A stretch of DNA of 34,919 bases. Origin: a virus. The first letter of the stretch is position 1; each line of letters begins with the position of its first letter. The position numbers were made by a program, and so were the translations under genes. Where the stretch lies: positions 1-34,919 of the IMG/VR virus record IMGVR_UViG_3300025840_000112; one strand, 5' to 3'. A model generated the notes under the pieces. That model ran no database searches. It was not told where the DNA came from and worked only from the letters and a program-made list of their open reading frames with translations. Below are positions 2,663 through 13,968 of the stretch, piece by piece.

Positions 2663-3039
2663 TTGGAGTAATCCTACAAGGCATCATGGGCGTCGCTAGT
2701 GAAGCTGTAGGTGGCTACATAGAGACCAAGAAAGCTAAGGCCAAGCAGAAGCTAGTACAGATAGAAGCTGAGACCACACTGATGGAGAAGCAGATATCTG
2801 GAGAGATAGACTGGGACATTGCAGCCCAGAAGAACTCTAGTGGCTCATGGAAAGACGAGTACCTTACCATTTTGTTCAGCATCCCCCTGTTGCTCTGCTT
2901 CTTGCCCTTCACTGTAGAATACGTCGAGCGAGGCTTTGAGGCTCTTGCTATGACCCCTGATTGGTACAAGTACACCCTCGGAGTAATCGTAAGCGCATCC
3001 TTCGGGATCAAAGGCGCAACTAAGATGTTTGGTAAGTAA
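2659..3039 (+). CDS. holin-like protein with two membrane segments
   Basis: A 126-aa protein. I choose ATG 2659, which overlaps the preceding TGA (ATGA), rather than an in-frame start 24 bases upstream that lacks good spacing. The N-terminal half is a charged helix (ETKKAKAKQKLVQIEAETT). After SGSWKDEYLTI come two hydrophobic segments at about residues 72-90 (LFSIPLLLCFLPF) and 107-120 (YTLGVIVSASFGIKG). This layout, a soluble helix plus C-terminal hairpin with W-K-D-E-x-L-T before the first helix, recurs in marine podophages and is often annotated as holin. It sits two genes before the endolysin. The holin role is inferred. Confidence 0.6.
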   Translation: MIGVILQGIMGVASEAVGGYIETKKAKAKQKLVQIEAETTLMEKQISGEIDWDIAAQKNSSGSWKDEYLTILFSIPLLLCFLPFTVEYVERGFEALAMTPDWYKYTLGVIVSASFGIKGATKMFGK

Positions 3040-3140
3040 TGGAAGTAGCTCACATAGAAATGATTATCCATATCCTTGTCCTAATAGGGGTATGGATCAA
3101 CACAGCAATCAACATTGTTCACAGGATAAACACTAAATGA
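3039..3140 (+). CDS. 33-aa single-pass membrane peptide
   Basis: Starts in TAATG with the previous stop and ends in ATGA with the endolysin start, so it is translationally linked on both sides. The 33 residues contain one hydrophobic helix (MIIHILVLIGVWINTAINIV, about residues 8-27) and a short basic end. Tiny single-helix peptides at this position could be pinholins, antiholins or spanin components. No conserved motif is visible. Tight coupling to the endolysin is the main evidence that it is a real gene. Confidence 0.5.
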   Translation: MEVAHIEMIIHILVLIGVWINTAINIVHRINTK

Positions 3141-3550
3141 ATAAACTGGTCGAACAACTCAAACGCCATGAGGGCATGAAACTTAAACCTTATTTTTGCA
3201 CACAGGGTAAATGTACTATCGGAATTGGAAGAAATCTGGACGACGTAGGTATAACCGAACAGGAAGCGGAGATGCTTCTGGAGAACGACATCAAAGAAGC
3301 AATACAACAGCTCAAGCGTCGCTTTCCGTGGACACTGGATTTAGACGAGGTACGTTTCGCAGCCCTTATCAACTTCACATTCAACGTAGGAATAGGAACA
3401 GTCTCCAAGTTCGTAAACGCAATGGGTCTGCTAAAGGACGGAAAGTACGATATGGCAGCCGATGAGTTCCTACGGTCTACCTGGGCTAAACAAGTAGGCC
3501 AGAGAGCAACCGAAGTAACAAATCAAATCCGAACAGGAGAATGGCAATGA
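3137..3550 (+). CDS. endolysin, T4-type lysozyme (GH24)
   Basis: A 137-aa muramidase that cleaves the MurNAc-GlcNAc bond of peptidoglycan. The sequence shows KRHEG (catalytic Glu12) and TIGIGRN (Thr27), aligned with E11 and T26 of T4 lysozyme. The residue aligned with T4 Asp20 is Cys21 (PYFCTQG), giving an E-C-T rather than E-D-T active site. The C-terminal lobe has the usual FAALINFTFNVG and STWAKQVGQRA segments. There is no signal peptide, so it needs a holin for export, in line with the small membrane proteins just upstream. Its ATG overlaps the upstream stop and its own stop overlaps the terminase small subunit start. Confidence 0.9.
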   Translation: MNKLVEQLKRHEGMKLKPYFCTQGKCTIGIGRNLDDVGITEQEAEMLLENDIKEAIQQLKRRFPWTLDLDEVRFAALINFTFNVGIGTVSKFVNAMGLLKDGKYDMAADEFLRSTWAKQVGQRATEVTNQIRTGEWQ

Positions 3551-6853: not shown

Positions 6854-7813
6854 ATGAATGTTTTATCTTTATTCGACGGTATGTCATGCGGTCAGCTTGC
6901 CTTGCAAAGGTCAGGCCTGAAGGTCACTAAATACTTTGCTAGTGAAATAGACAAGTATGCGGTCAGTATCACCCAGAAGAATTTTCCGGATACTGTCCAG
7001 CTCGGGGATGTTCGGGGGGTATATGCAGAACAGGGTCAGCTATTAACTACAGGCGATAATCGCGCCTATAAAATTGACCTACTCATTGGGGGGTCGCCTT
7101 GTCAGGATTTGTCTATCGCATCCAGAAATAGAAAGGGGCTAGAGGGTGAAAGGTCTGGTCTGTTTTATGAATGGGTCAGGCTATGGAAAGCATTGCAGCC
7201 CCGTTATTTTTTGCTGGAAAACGTACAGATGAAGGCAGAAGACCAGCAGATAATCACTGACCTTCTAGGGGTCGAGCCTGTCTTTATAAATAGCAATCTA
7301 GTATCAGCCCAGAATAGGCCTAGATTGTACTGGACAAATATTCCTGTTGATGGATTACCAGAAGACAAAGGAATAAAGCTTGCCGATATCTTGGAAGACG
7401 GGGCGACCGATAGGGACAAAGCCCATTGCATCGACGCCAATTATTTTAAGGGTGGCAATCTTAAATCCTACTTTCAGAAGAATAGAAGACAGCTGGTCTT
7501 TTCACCCGACGGCCTTTGCCATGTAGCAGATGCAGACCTGAAGGGTCATGACCTATTGCGTCGGGTCTATCATCCAGCAGGGAAAGCCCCTTGCCTTAAC
7601 ACTATGAACGGGGGCAATCGCGAACCAAAAACCCTTTGGGGTGATAAGGCATGGCGCAAGCTTACCCCTTTAGAATGTGAAAGATTGCAGACAGTCCCCG
7701 ATAATTATTCAGCAGGGGTTAGCAATACCCAGCGATATAGAATGCTGGGCAATGGCTGGACTGTCGACGTTATCTGTCACTTGTTCAAAAACTTACAAAT
7801 AGAAGGGGCTTAA
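6854..7813 (+). CDS. DNA cytosine-5 methyltransferase (Dcm/DNMT-like)
   Basis: A 319-aa S-adenosylmethionine-dependent enzyme that methylates C5 of cytosine in a specific DNA site. Conserved motifs are in the standard order: motif I LSLFDGMSCGQ (residues 4-14), motif IV GGSPCQDLS with catalytic Cys83, motif VI LENVQ (121-125), motif VIII QNRPRLYW (153-160), motif IX KLTPLECERLQ and motif X RYRMLGNGW. The start MNVLSLFDGMSCGQLAL resembles the short phage-type methyltransferases. The target-recognition region between motifs VIII and IX is about 110 residues. No restriction endonuclease is adjacent, so it is likely a solitary phage enzyme that protects against restriction or marks DNA. The ribosome binding site is AGAAGGG. 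Glycine codons are often GGG, unlike the phage core. Confidence 0.93.
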   Translation: MNVLSLFDGMSCGQLALQRSGLKVTKYFASEIDKYAVSITQKNFPDTVQLGDVRGVYAEQGQLLTTGDNRAYKIDLLIGGSPCQDLSIASRNRKGLEGERSGLFYEWVRLWKALQPRYFLLENVQMKAEDQQIITDLLGVEPVFINSNLVSAQNRPRLYWTNIPVDGLPEDKGIKLADILEDGATDRDKAHCIDANYFKGGNLKSYFQKNRRQLVFSPDGLCHVADADLKGHDLLRRVYHPAGKAPCLNTMNGGNREPKTLWGDKAWRKLTPLECERLQTVPDNYSAGVSNTQRYRMLGNGWTVDVICHLFKNLQIEGA

Positions 7814-9651: not shown

Positions 9652-9978
9652 ATGACAAAATCCGCCGAACTTAAGGGGGTTCTTGAGCAGTTTTATACAC
9701 TATACCCTGCGATGCCACTGACATACATTTTAAGCTTCATCTGGGTAGCAGAAAACGAGGGACGACACCAATACGACCTCGAGCAATACTTAGGACTATC
9801 CAATGCAACAGCGTCAAGATGTATAAAATGGTGGGGCAGATGGAAGGACAAGAAAAAGCAAAATGCTGGCTTGGAATTCATCGAGTCCTACCCTGACCCA
9901 GTCGATGAGCGTTACAGGGTTGTTAAGTTAACTAAATCAGGAAAGGCTTTCTATGAGAGAGTATTCAAAAGCGAATAA
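9652..9978 (+). CDS. winged-helix (MarR-like) DNA-binding regulator
   Basis: A 108-aa protein preceded by GAGGG. Residues about 42-62 (YDLEQYLGLSNATASRCIKWW) form a helix-turn-helix with the recognition helix NATASRCIKWW. The later ERYRVVKLTKSGKAFYERV (about 87-105) is the beta-wing and final helix typical of MarR-type winged helices. Such proteins bind palindromic operators as dimers. Lying just before the integrase, it could control the lysis-lysogeny choice or an early promoter, for example the dyad before the RNA polymerase gene. That role is inferred. It ends 26 bases inside the next gene. Confidence 0.7.
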   Translation: MTKSAELKGVLEQFYTLYPAMPLTYILSFIWVAENEGRHQYDLEQYLGLSNATASRCIKWWGRWKDKKKQNAGLEFIESYPDPVDERYRVVKLTKSGKAFYERVFKSE

Positions 9979-11212: not shown

Positions 11213-11300
11213 GGGGGCATGGTGAAATTGGTAAACACACAAGACTTAAAATCTTGCGGCTGAACAAGCCTTCCCGGTTCAAGTCCGGGTGTCCCCACCA
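11213..11300 (+). tRNA. tRNA-Leu (anticodon UAA), probable attP core
   Basis: A complete 88-base class II tRNA with encoded CCA. Acceptor GGGGGCA (11213-11219) pairs with TGTCCCC (11290-11296) with one G-T. The D stem is GTG/CAC, the anticodon stem CAAGA/TCTTG with loop CTTAAAA (anticodon TAA at 11247-11249). The variable arm is GGCT/AGCC and the T arm CCCGG-TTCAAGT-CCGGG, followed by A and CCA. It is flanked by phage genes on both sides, which fits an unintegrated attP that carries a whole tRNA or restores the host gene on integration. P-SSP7 and pelagiphages carry tRNA-Leu matches in the same place. It may also be expressed. Confidence 0.92.
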
Positions 11301-11304
11301 TTTT

Positions 11305-11323
11305 ACACAAGAGTCTTAAAATC
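11305..11323 (+). repeat. degenerate copy of the tRNA-Leu anticodon arm
   Basis: ACACAAGAGTCTTAAAATC repeats the tRNA segment at 11237-11253 (ACACAAGACTTAAAATC) with only a two-base insertion. It starts five bases after the tRNA end. The 3' half of the stem is not restored, so it is not a second tRNA. It could be a remnant of an earlier recombination or an alternative core-like site. Confidence 0.5.
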
Positions 11324-11359
11324 CCTATAGACTCCCTTACATATCCAAAAACAACCTCT

Positions 11360-11384
11360 AGCCCTTGTATATTCTACAGGGGCT
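11360..11384 (+). promoter_or_regulatory. 25-base dyad upstream of the RNA polymerase gene
   Basis: AGCCCTTGTA-TATTC-TACAGGGGCT forms a 10-bp stem with one G-T pair. No T-run follows. Seven bases downstream is TATACT (11391-11396), a good -10 hexamer, so the dyad covers the place where a -35 element would lie. It could be an operator, for instance for the winged-helix regulator, or an RNA processing hairpin in the transcript entering the RNA polymerase gene. Confidence 0.4.
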
Positions 11385-11445
11385 GGACGATATACTATTA
11401 CTTACACATACACAGGAGACTTGTATGAAGAGGCACACTGTATCG

Positions 11446-11468
11446 AAACTTATCACACGTACTAGAAG
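11446..11468 (+). promoter_or_regulatory. predicted phage RNA polymerase promoter (copy 1)
   Basis: First copy of a 23-bp perfect direct repeat, whose second copy is at 13991-14013. Its end, CACACGTACTAGAAG, resembles the last part of the SP6 promoter (ACACTATAGAAG). The predicted start is G11465, 23 bases before ATG 11488. It lies inside the longer possible reading frame of the RNA polymerase. Identity is inferred from repetition, position and similarity to T7-group promoters. Confidence 0.65.
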
Positions 11469-11487
11469 AGAAGAGGAGTATCCAAAG

Positions 11488-13968
11488 ATGAACCAAGAGT
11501 ATAACTATAAGTTAAACTGTAGTGATGACTTTAGTAATAGCGTCTTACAGGATAAATTAGAAGAAGATATCTATACTAGTGCTAATACTAGAATGACTAA
11601 AGATAACTTAGAGTCTAACTCTAGGGGGGCTTGGTCTGAAAGTAAGATAGGCAGTAGGTATGTCTCTTCAGCCCAGCGAAAGTTCACTGAAGCTTTAATC
11701 TCGTTCCTGTCTAGGAAGAGTGGTGGTAGGGGTGCTAGAGCTGCTGAGTATCTAAGACAGACTGGTCTCAATCCAGAGGTTATCTCATACCTCTATGTCA
11801 AACAGGTATTTAATTTAATACCCTTGTTTTCGTCTAAACCAATCAAGCGTACCAGCTTCTGTATTAAATCTGTTGATGCTATCCATACAGAGTGGCGTTT
11901 AGATTTCTTTGGGTCTGTCAAGGAACGTAAGAACCTATTGGATAAGATTACGAAAGACATGGACAAGCGTACCTACCCTACGTCTTGGCGTATGCGTACC
12001 TACCGGATGTACTTCGATGCTGAACAGGTAGAGTGGCGTGGATGGTCTCAAAGAGAGTGTCTGTTGATTGGATATGCTCTGATGAACCTCTTCAGGGAAG
12101 CTACAGCCTTAATTCAGTATGACCACACGGAGACCTACATAATACCTACCCCTGAACTGGTAGACCATGTAGAGGAAACCTGTAAGCGGTCTGTATTAGA
12201 CTTTACGCTGTACCTACCGATGGTCGTTAAGCCTCGCCCGTGGTCTGCTGAATATAATCTGTTCAAGGGTGGATACCTTAACAAAGGCCGTGTGAAAAAA
12301 TACAGCATCATCAAAGGTGCTGGTAAAAGAGATGTCGAGCGTATGCTACGGATGGACTGGGAGCGTATCCTGCCACCCATCAATGCCATACAGGAGACAC
12401 CTTGGAGAGTAAAGCGTCGCATGGTTGACGCACTAGATTACGTCTTCAATGAGCTGGGCGGTAACCGTGGGGGTTTACCAACTGTAGATGCCCGTGAGTT
12501 ACCACCCAAACCACCAGCCTACGATACAGACGAACAAGTACGCAAAGCCCACAACAGGGAAGTATTTCTTGTTCGTGACCAGAACCGTCAGGATATCTCA
12601 AAGAGACTGTCAGTTGTCTTTACGTTGTCCATAGCTCGTAAGTTTCAGCAGTTCCATCAGATATTCTTTCCGCACAATCTGGATGTACGGGGTCGGGCAT
12701 ATCCACTACCAGCCTTCCTGAACCCACAGGCAGCCGACTTCGGTAAATCAATGCTGGAGTTTGCTGAGGGTCAACCTATCCAGAACATGGAGCAAGCTGC
12801 ATGGCTTGCGGTGGCTGGAGCTAATGCTTGGGGTAACGATAAAGTATCCCTGCAAGACCGAGCTGACTGGGTGATTGCCAATGAGGACTGGATTGTAGAG
12901 TGTGGCAAAGACTGGCGTAATAACCAGCAGTGGCTGGACGCTGACGAACCTTTCATGTTCTTGTCCTTCTGTATGGAATGGGCAGACCTGTTGGAGACAG
13001 ATAAGCGTGGCGAGGTATTCTATTCGCACTTCCCGTGCCATGTAGATGCCACCTGTTCCGGCTTACAGCACTACTCAGCGATGCTCAGAGATGAGGTCGG
13101 GGGTAAATCAGTAAACCTAATTCCAGGATTAGACCGTCAGGACATCTATGCTGATGTGGCAGAGGTGACCAAACGTATGCTGATTGCCGAGGGTTCACCG
13201 GAGGCCATGTTATGGGTCAACTTTGGAATAGACCGTAAGATGACCAAGCGTCAGACAATGGTGATACCTTATGCTGGTAAGTTCTCGAGCTGTATGGAGT
13301 ACACCCGAGAGGCTTACATGGACAAGCTGAAGGCTGGACATAAGCGGATGTGGGATGACAAGCAGGATCAAGCGATGGTCGTACTACTTGCCAAGCACAT
13401 TTGGGCAGCTATAAATGAGGTGGTTGTGAAGGGTAAGGTGGCTATGGACTGGCTGTCTTCAGTAGCCAGAGAGTGGACTAAATACCAAAACAAGCTGGAA
13501 TGTTCAGGGTACGATAAACGTATGACATGGACAACACCCGATGGTTTTCAGGTGGTACAGTACAGAGCAGCACAAAAACAAATGCGACATGATACTTACA
13601 TGAACGGAAGGGTTAGCCTTACATATTATGAAGATGCACCAAAACTTGATGGAAAAGATATGGCACTATCTGTTGCGCCTAACTTTGTTCACAGCCTCGA
13701 TGCTACTCATTTGCGTATGGCTGTCCTTGATGGTCTCAGAGTTGGGATTGGTAGCTTTGCCATGATCCATGACAGCTTCGGGGTTCATGCTGCACATATG
13801 CCTGTGTTTATCGAGCAGTGTGTAAAGCCTAGCTTTATACAAATGTATGTACACTCAGACCCTTTGGCTGAATTACATAATTCTTTGCCTTTTGAACATG
13901 ACCTTCCCCCGTCTAAAGGTAACTTGGACATTCAAGGTGTCTCTGAAAGTGAGTTTTTCTTTTCTTAA
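11488..13968 (+). CDS. T7-like single-subunit DNA-directed RNA polymerase
   Basis: Transcribes the phage genes from phage-specific promoters. With ATG 11488 (AGAGGAG nine bases upstream) it has 826 aa; ATG 11425, also with a good AGGAG, would give 847 aa. T7 RNA polymerase has 883. Catalytic features are intact: LDVRGRAYPLP (about 398-408), motif A HVDATCSGLQH with D520 (T7 D537), motif B MTKRQTMVIPYAG with K587 and Y595 (T7 K631 and Y639), motif C MIHDSFG with D762 (T7 D812), and a hydrophobic C-terminus EFFFS like the T7 FAFA foot. A predicted phage promoter lies just before the shorter start. The integrase and tRNA precede it, as in temperate marine podophages. Confidence 0.95.
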   Translation: MNQEYNYKLNCSDDFSNSVLQDKLEEDIYTSANTRMTKDNLESNSRGAWSESKIGSRYVSSAQRKFTEALISFLSRKSGGRGARAAEYLRQTGLNPEVISYLYVKQVFNLIPLFSSKPIKRTSFCIKSVDAIHTEWRLDFFGSVKERKNLLDKITKDMDKRTYPTSWRMRTYRMYFDAEQVEWRGWSQRECLLIGYALMNLFREATALIQYDHTETYIIPTPELVDHVEETCKRSVLDFTLYLPMVVKPRPWSAEYNLFKGGYLNKGRVKKYSIIKGAGKRDVERMLRMDWERILPPINAIQETPWRVKRRMVDALDYVFNELGGNRGGLPTVDARELPPKPPAYDTDEQVRKAHNREVFLVRDQNRQDISKRLSVVFTLSIARKFQQFHQIFFPHNLDVRGRAYPLPAFLNPQAADFGKSMLEFAEGQPIQNMEQAAWLAVAGANAWGNDKVSLQDRADWVIANEDWIVECGKDWRNNQQWLDADEPFMFLSFCMEWADLLETDKRGEVFYSHFPCHVDATCSGLQHYSAMLRDEVGGKSVNLIPGLDRQDIYADVAEVTKRMLIAEGSPEAMLWVNFGIDRKMTKRQTMVIPYAGKFSSCMEYTREAYMDKLKAGHKRMWDDKQDQAMVVLLAKHIWAAINEVVVKGKVAMDWLSSVAREWTKYQNKLECSGYDKRMTWTTPDGFQVVQYRAAQKQMRHDTYMNGRVSLTYYEDAPKLDGKDMALSVAPNFVHSLDATHLRMAVLDGLRVGIGSFAMIHDSFGVHAAHMPVFIEQCVKPSFIQMYVHSDPLAELHNSLPFEHDLPPSKGNLDIQGVSESEFFFS

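Follow-up and report, generated by a model that had tools for sequence, protein, structure and literature searches.

Tyrosine integrases are used in tRNA-dependent lysogeny to recombine a short phage core with a tRNA gene of the host, which is lost in the process and whose product is replaced by an isotype-matched phage tRNA (PMC10865867). The genetic proof came from mycobacteriophages, Fionnbharth and its relatives, and its authors left open how prevalent the strategy is beyond actinobacterial phages (PMC10865867). For T7-like phages, related proposals have been made. The Rhizobium prophages vTRX32-1 and RHEph01 have a 12-bp tRNA-Leu core, CAGATTTAGGTT, together with a separate whole tRNA-Leu that was proposed to replace the host gene (PMC8631192), and the tRNA-Leu of Fonsiphage, a freshwater SAR11 phage, was proposed to replace that of its host (PMC6811365). 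Integration of the T7-like cyanophages P-SSP7 and S-TIP37 has been shown experimentally, and stable lysogens were not obtained in those tested (PMC8776855).

The window analysed here is the whole 34,919-base IMG/VR virus record IMGVR_UViG_3300025840_000112 and belongs to a T7-like marine phage. It is close to the proposal made for the Rhizobium prophages (PMC8631192), and the kind of system is thus one already known. Both are Autographiviridae with an integrase, a tRNA-Leu core after the integrase and a separate whole tRNA-Leu; the Rhizobium prophages, however, carry a tRNA-Leu(UAG) on the minus strand before the integrase, whereas the window has a tRNA-Leu(UAA) on the plus strand between integrase and core, and its predicted host is SAR116 instead of Rhizobium. 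On the reading proposed here, the tyrosine integrase, the short host-tRNA core without rebuilding and a phage tRNA that matches the target in isotype are common to the window and the mycobacteriophages, although the latter are actinobacteriophages using tRNA-Lys(UUU) and the former is a T7-like phage using tRNA-Leu, with a core that corresponds to the anticodon loop. That the tRNA is needed is proven in the mycobacteriophages (PMC10865867) and inferred for the window phage. HTVC200P, HTVC119P, Fonsiphage and LUZ100 are, like the window phage, integrase-bearing T7-like phages with a whole tRNA-Leu. The pelagiphages HTVC200P and HTVC119P, as well as LUZ100, also have the order MarR-like gene, integrase and RNA polymerase and an extra loop copy after the integrase, but their tRNA is on the minus strand before the integrase and their hosts are others; the window integrase is only about 35% identical to those of HTVC200P and LUZ100. 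In P-SSP7 and S-TIP37 the integrase likewise lies upstream of attP and the target is likewise a tRNA-Leu, but their attP matches one tRNA half over roughly 39 bp and no whole replacement tRNA has been described.

Gene content of the window

The identification as a T7-like phage with an integrase, made in an earlier note from the sequence, was right, as the RNA polymerase (PF00940), terminase (T7 terminase domain PF22530) and integrase calls indicate. There is in addition a weak match to the T7 SSB, other T7-like genes are present and the gene order matches that of T7-like relatives. The phage belongs to the Autographiviridae, as it encodes a single-subunit RNA polymerase of its own and its genes for replication and packaging are of T7 type. 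A C5 cytosine DNA methyltransferase (6854-7813, PF00145) lies in the early region. The start codon of the integrase was set from the alignment, and the tyrosine recombinase residues R, H-x-x-R, H and Y are conserved (A1), so that the phage-encoded tyrosine integrase of tRNA-dependent lysogeny (PF00589) is in place with its catalytic residues. A MarR-type annotation occupies the place equivalent to that of the small regulator in HTVC200P, HTVC119P, CRP-403 and LUZ100.

Features of the integrase locus in the window (coordinates of the window; strand as +, or. for none)
Feature	Position	Strand	Basis or remark
Small transcriptional regulator, counterpart of the MarR-like integrase partner in relatives	9652..9978	+	phrog_9665 transcriptional regulator, E 2.7e-22
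Tyrosine integrase, 323 aa	10188..11159	+	Pfam PF00589, E 1.4e-27; phrog_1 integrase, E 3e-57
Complete tRNA-Leu(UAA) with CCA, proposed replacement tRNA	11213..11300	+	ARAGORN, Rfam, fold
Invariant block CAAGAGTCTTAAAATC (16 bp) around the proposed attP core	11308..11323	+	identical in all 7 aligned relatives
Inverted repeat GAGTCT (11311-11316) / AGACTC (11329-11334) spanning the core	11311..11334	.	read from sequence
CTTAAAATC, proposed attP crossover core	11315..11323	+	equals the host tRNA-Leu(UAA) anticodon loop + 2 nt
T7-like single-subunit RNA polymerase (start codon inferred)	11425..13968	+	PF00940, E 4e-86; phrog_414, E 1.3e-208

Just upstream of the RNA polymerase gene there is a strong hairpin (11357-11386; flanks 11337-11413; z-score -5.45), and paired changes are visible in its counterparts in relatives, where direct repeats CTTACACAT, 65 nt apart, flank the corresponding hairpin. 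The hairpin may act as an operator or promoter, perhaps for the MarR-like regulator.

The tRNA-Leu(UAA) gene and its host type

ARAGORN, the Rfam model and the predicted fold all confirmed that a complete, fully paired tRNA-Leu(UAA) with an encoded CCA lies 53 nt past the integrase stop. It is the sole tRNA that ARAGORN called in the window, and phage genes flank it on both sides, with that of the RNA polymerase downstream. The Rfam tRNA model matched at 11213-11297 with 60.2 bits (E 8.7e-11). The minimum-energy fold (-30.5 kcal/mol) is a cloverleaf with a long variable arm, in which the acceptor, D, anticodon, variable and T stems have 7, 3, 5, 4 and 5 bp, and the gene encodes the discriminator A before the CCA. 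A promoter scan around the tRNA gave sites no more numerous than in shuffled sequences.

The structure is kept in the related phage genes that were compared. Comparison of the 18 phage tRNA-Leu(UAA) genes found near this integrase family (17 of them distinct) showed standard pairs in 340 of 340 pair cells, with two-sided changes in 17 of the 20 stem pairs. When partner columns were slid as a control, 33-52% of the cells were paired, and none of 500 shuffles reached the observed pairing and covariation, a test that overstates independence because the loci counted are related. This pattern indicates that the phage tRNAs are under selection to fold and that their perfect pairing is held by compensatory changes. 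The longest exact run shared with a host tRNA, on the other hand, drifts: locus L002 has 48 nt and the window 38 nt, whereas L003 and L122 have 28-30 nt and L123 has 17 nt. Conserved folding combined with drifting host identity appears to suit a working tRNA better than an attachment site. The SAR116-type tRNA-Leu(UAA) of L123 (2796-2882) has the anticodon stem ACGGG/CCCGT, in which even the loop-adjacent pair is altered, and more paired changes in the D and T stems. At the equivalent place in the same phage group, L004 (2318-2405) and L005 (3320-3407) carry a tRNA-Leu(UAA) of another body type, similar in its variable and T arms to the tRNA-Leu(UAA) of G118-type genomes from the host order; the search for its host gave a best match of 85% and no close host.

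Exact matches to the 3′-terminal 31 nt of the window tRNA were found in 19 genome contigs, all labelled SAR116 or Alphaproteobacteria, and 18 of these contain a complete tRNA-Leu(UAA) at the match, the remaining one being interrupted by the contig end. Among 136 genomes of the host order the best match to the tRNA was 95% identical, and the GC content of the window (45.3%) falls within that of the closest hosts (45-48%). A search of IMG/VR with the 51-nt 3′ part of the tRNA gave no match. The earlier note had asked for an identical 3′ part of at least 40 nt in a bacterial tRNA; the 38 nt that the window shares with SAR116 3′ ends come close to that length. On these matches the body of the window tRNA is of SAR116 type, and the host of the phage is very likely SAR116. 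The anticodon stem is CAAGA/TCTTG in the window and ACAGA/TCTGT or GCAGA/TCTGC in SAR116 hosts, a difference that reads as a compensatory change. Partial matches in G118, G119, G122 and G020 were considered as split tRNAs and turned out to be whole tRNA-Leu(UAA) genes of another body type; since these genes, from genomes of the host order, have the CAAGA/TCTTG stem, the stem seen in the window is not unique to phages. In each SAR116 genome searched, only one close tRNA-Leu(UAA) match was seen. Second matches score far lower and presumably represent another isoacceptor.

Whole and half tRNA-Leu genes beside related integrases

Relatives of the integrase were collected from IMG/VR and from phage isolates. 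A whole tRNA-Leu was present in 33 of the 95 loci of this family that were examined, including those of HTVC200P, HTVC119P, S28-C10, LUZ100, Pasto, RHEph01, Lo5R7ANS and many uncultured contigs, so that the earlier statement that most such phages carry a partial tRNA match does not hold in general. The strand of the whole gene varies, and so does the side of the integrase on which it lies. Eleven loci without a whole tRNA-Leu, HTVC109P among them, have instead a 5′ half tRNA-Leu that ends at the loop, and no such half was found at the loci with a whole tRNA. The two arrangements look like alternatives. Within about 3.5 kb of the integrase, the tRNAs found were tRNA-Leu at 33 loci, tRNA-Ser at 2 and tRNA-Cys at 1. 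The complete tRNA-Cys (L143, 3878-3951) starts 2 bp past the integrase stop and implies that the family is not tied to tRNA-Leu in every member. The tRNA-Leu(UAG) of RHEph01 (L117, 1509-1593) is absent from the annotation of record NC_047738.

For LUZ100, the authors proposed that the tRNA was left behind by imprecise excision (PMC10134795). Extended to the window, this would make the gene a functionless leftover, as might be supposed of a host-type tRNA that adjoins an integrase. Decay would then be expected, yet the 18 phage tRNAs retain every stem pair despite numerous two-sided changes, and a whole tRNA-Leu is found repeatedly on either side of the integrase and on either strand. We consider this origin highly improbable, the least probable of the explanations weighed here.

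A separate copy of the anticodon loop after the integrase

A second feature of these loci is an additional 7-nt copy of the anticodon loop, outside the tRNA and within 200 bp 3′ of the integrase, which was found at 26 of 30 loci with a whole tRNA-Leu, where dinucleotide shuffles gave an expectation of 0.86; several of the 30 loci are closely related, so that the 26 are not independent events, and the isolates alone span alpha- and gammaproteobacterial hosts. The copy is always on the integrase (plus) strand, never on the minus strand, and its place and orientation are the same at loci whose tRNA precedes the integrase or has the opposite orientation. The extra copy of RHEph01 is the published 12-bp attachment core.

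In the window the copy is part of the block CAAGAGTCTTAAAATC, which is unchanged in the seven aligned relatives whose tRNAs differ strongly; more copies of the block are present in L256 and L258. Comparison predicts a 9-bp core at 11315-11323, with junctions seen in relatives only. Its match to the SAR116 tRNA is limited to these 9 bp, the left flank being AGAGT as against ACAGA in the host stem. This separate loop copy is most likely the attP core of the window phage. The inverted repeat that spans it pairs in the predicted fold, is found in L003 and L123 and is not kept in L004 and L005; it possibly represents the core-binding arms of the integrase. The gap between integrase and tRNA is larger in L005 (with an 82-aa ORF, 3026-3274) and in L002 (340 bp, 7114-7452), and the spacing from tRNA to core is steady at 13-15 bp in both despite the enlarged gap.

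The loop copies also bear on a possible role of the tRNA in lytic growth, which would make its position next to the integrase incidental. Phage tRNAs are known elsewhere both to aid codon decoding and to replace host tRNAs cut by anticodon nucleases. Both uses are discussed in the work on tRNA-dependent lysogeny (PMC10865867). The structural conservation of the tRNA does indicate a working molecule, and in the Mesorhizobium phage Lo5R7ANS two annotated tRNA splicing ligase genes (L118, 6374-7569) adjoin the whole tRNA-Leu(UAG), which would fit the repair of a cut tRNA. UUA, though, is not enriched in the window phage: it makes up 16% of leucine codons, inside the range of 6-36% in SAR116 fragments, which speaks against the supply of UUA decoding. 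Codon supply also predicts neither the near-exclusive occurrence of tRNA-Leu nor the loop copies at 26 of 30 loci. A lytic role is compatible with tRNA-dependent lysogeny; as the sole explanation of the locus we regard it as very unlikely.

Junctions in integrated relatives

An integrated T7-like prophage of about 42.7 kb was found in G522:C7. Its attL is the host 5′ half and its attR the host 3′ half of a tRNA-Leu(UAG), both broken at the anticodon loop and sharing the 13-bp core CTGGATTTAGGTT. The prophage itself has a whole tRNA-Leu(UAG), encoded on the minus strand ahead of the integrase, which integration left untouched; its anticodon stem is CAGGA/TCCTG, whereas that of the host is CTGGA/TCCAG. 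The arrangement of whole tRNA and separate loop copy is thus present in an integrated relative, in which phage tRNA and split host tRNA are both tRNA-Leu(UAG). The prophage copy is the only intact tRNA-Leu(UAG) found in the G522 assembly, the other leucine tRNAs matched having the anticodons CAG and GAG. In three further contigs (L192, L136 and L161) the integrase is followed by a 3′ half of a tRNA-Leu of host type, and each also has a whole phage tRNA-Leu with the same anticodon.

For the clade of the window, no integrated copy was found in the 136 host-order genomes or in IMG/VR, and a pattern search for its expected attR junction gave none. A search for the core block with one mismatch allowed returned scattered matches in the 136 genomes, none of them exact. 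SAR116 genomes contained only distant integrases (25-36%), and many of the loci inspected adjoin tRNA-Arg and none tRNA-Leu; the integrases of G210, G333 and similar genomes had good scores and no tRNA-Leu junction. The prophage junctions suggested as a check thus came to light in a relative, split at the anticodon loop, and not in the window's own clade.

These junctions bear on the earlier note's proposal of the tRNA gene itself as attachment site, in which case a whole gene would once have been taken up and an inner crossover would leave a rebuilt tRNA at one junction. The tRNA directly follows the integrase, the 38 nt (window) or 48 nt (L002) identical to SAR116 3′ ends are enough for a canonical attP, and related T7-like cyanophages use a long tRNA-Leu match as attP (PMC8776855). 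Among the relatives, however, the strand and position of the tRNA vary and the loop copy is constant, and L003, L122 and L123 share only 17-30 nt with the host, with no change in the core block. Integration of the G522 relative made no use of the phage tRNA. Unless the stem of the real host differs, a crossover in the loop of the window tRNA would disrupt the anticodon stem by joining host ACAGA to phage TCTTG. With the loop copy fixed, the tRNA moving and diverging, and the G522 crossover located elsewhere, the proposal is probably wrong; we think it improbable, if somewhat less so than the leftover and lytic explanations. The note's choice of tRNA-Leu as the host target, by comparison, is very likely correct.

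Proposed mechanism

We infer, with considerable though not full confidence, that the locus works by tRNA-dependent lysogeny, the separate loop core acting as attP and the phage tRNA replacing that of the host. The integrase would recombine the core CTTAAAATC (11315-11323) with its identical counterpart at the anticodon loop of the SAR116 tRNA-Leu(UAA), and the insertion would split this gene, which is probably the only one of its kind in the host. No tRNA half is part of attP, so neither junction would rebuild the host gene. The predicted attL consists of the host 5′ half ending in CAGACTTAAAATC, followed by CCTATAGACTC, and the predicted attR of CACAAGAGTCTTAAAATC, followed by the host 3′ half beginning TGTCGGC. 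The phage tRNA-Leu(UAA) at 11213-11300 would remain intact beside the integrase and, once transcribed and charged, supply the lost tRNA, and the lysogen could therefore live. On the premise of a tRNA-Leu(UAA) target, phage tRNA and target are of the same isotype. That the crossover in G522 lies at a separate core, and that the phage tRNAs diverge freely, argues that the tRNA replaces the host gene and is not rebuilt from it. The idea that a whole tRNA can stand in for the disrupted gene is probably sound. That the G522 prophage has the sole intact tRNA-Leu(UAG) found in that assembly supports the view that viable lysogens would need the phage tRNA.

Implications for integrase-bearing T7-like phages

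Taken across the family, the loci suggest that tRNA-dependent lysogeny may be frequent among integrase-bearing T7-like phages of Proteobacteria. It is also possible, and we put it forward tentatively, that these phages have two interchangeable ways to use one target: either a half tRNA-Leu serves as attP and rebuilds the host gene, or a bare loop core is combined with a whole tRNA-Leu whose changed stem evades the phage's own integrase. Compensatory stem changes are suggested to hide the phage tRNA in this manner, bearing in mind that few hosts are known and that a random stem would usually differ from the host's too. If the two-way reading is true, tRNA-dependent lysogeny would be common in the group, marine SAR116 phages included, and the integrase would select for change in the tRNA sequence.

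The locus also advises caution, as attachment does not always occur at a tRNA that adjoins an integrase. Such phages and their attP can be sought by looking for a whole tRNA together with another copy of its anticodon loop downstream of the integrase, and the tRNA links an uncultured phage to SAR116 hosts. The proposed mechanism would explain why phages that are often thought lytic keep a single whole tRNA.
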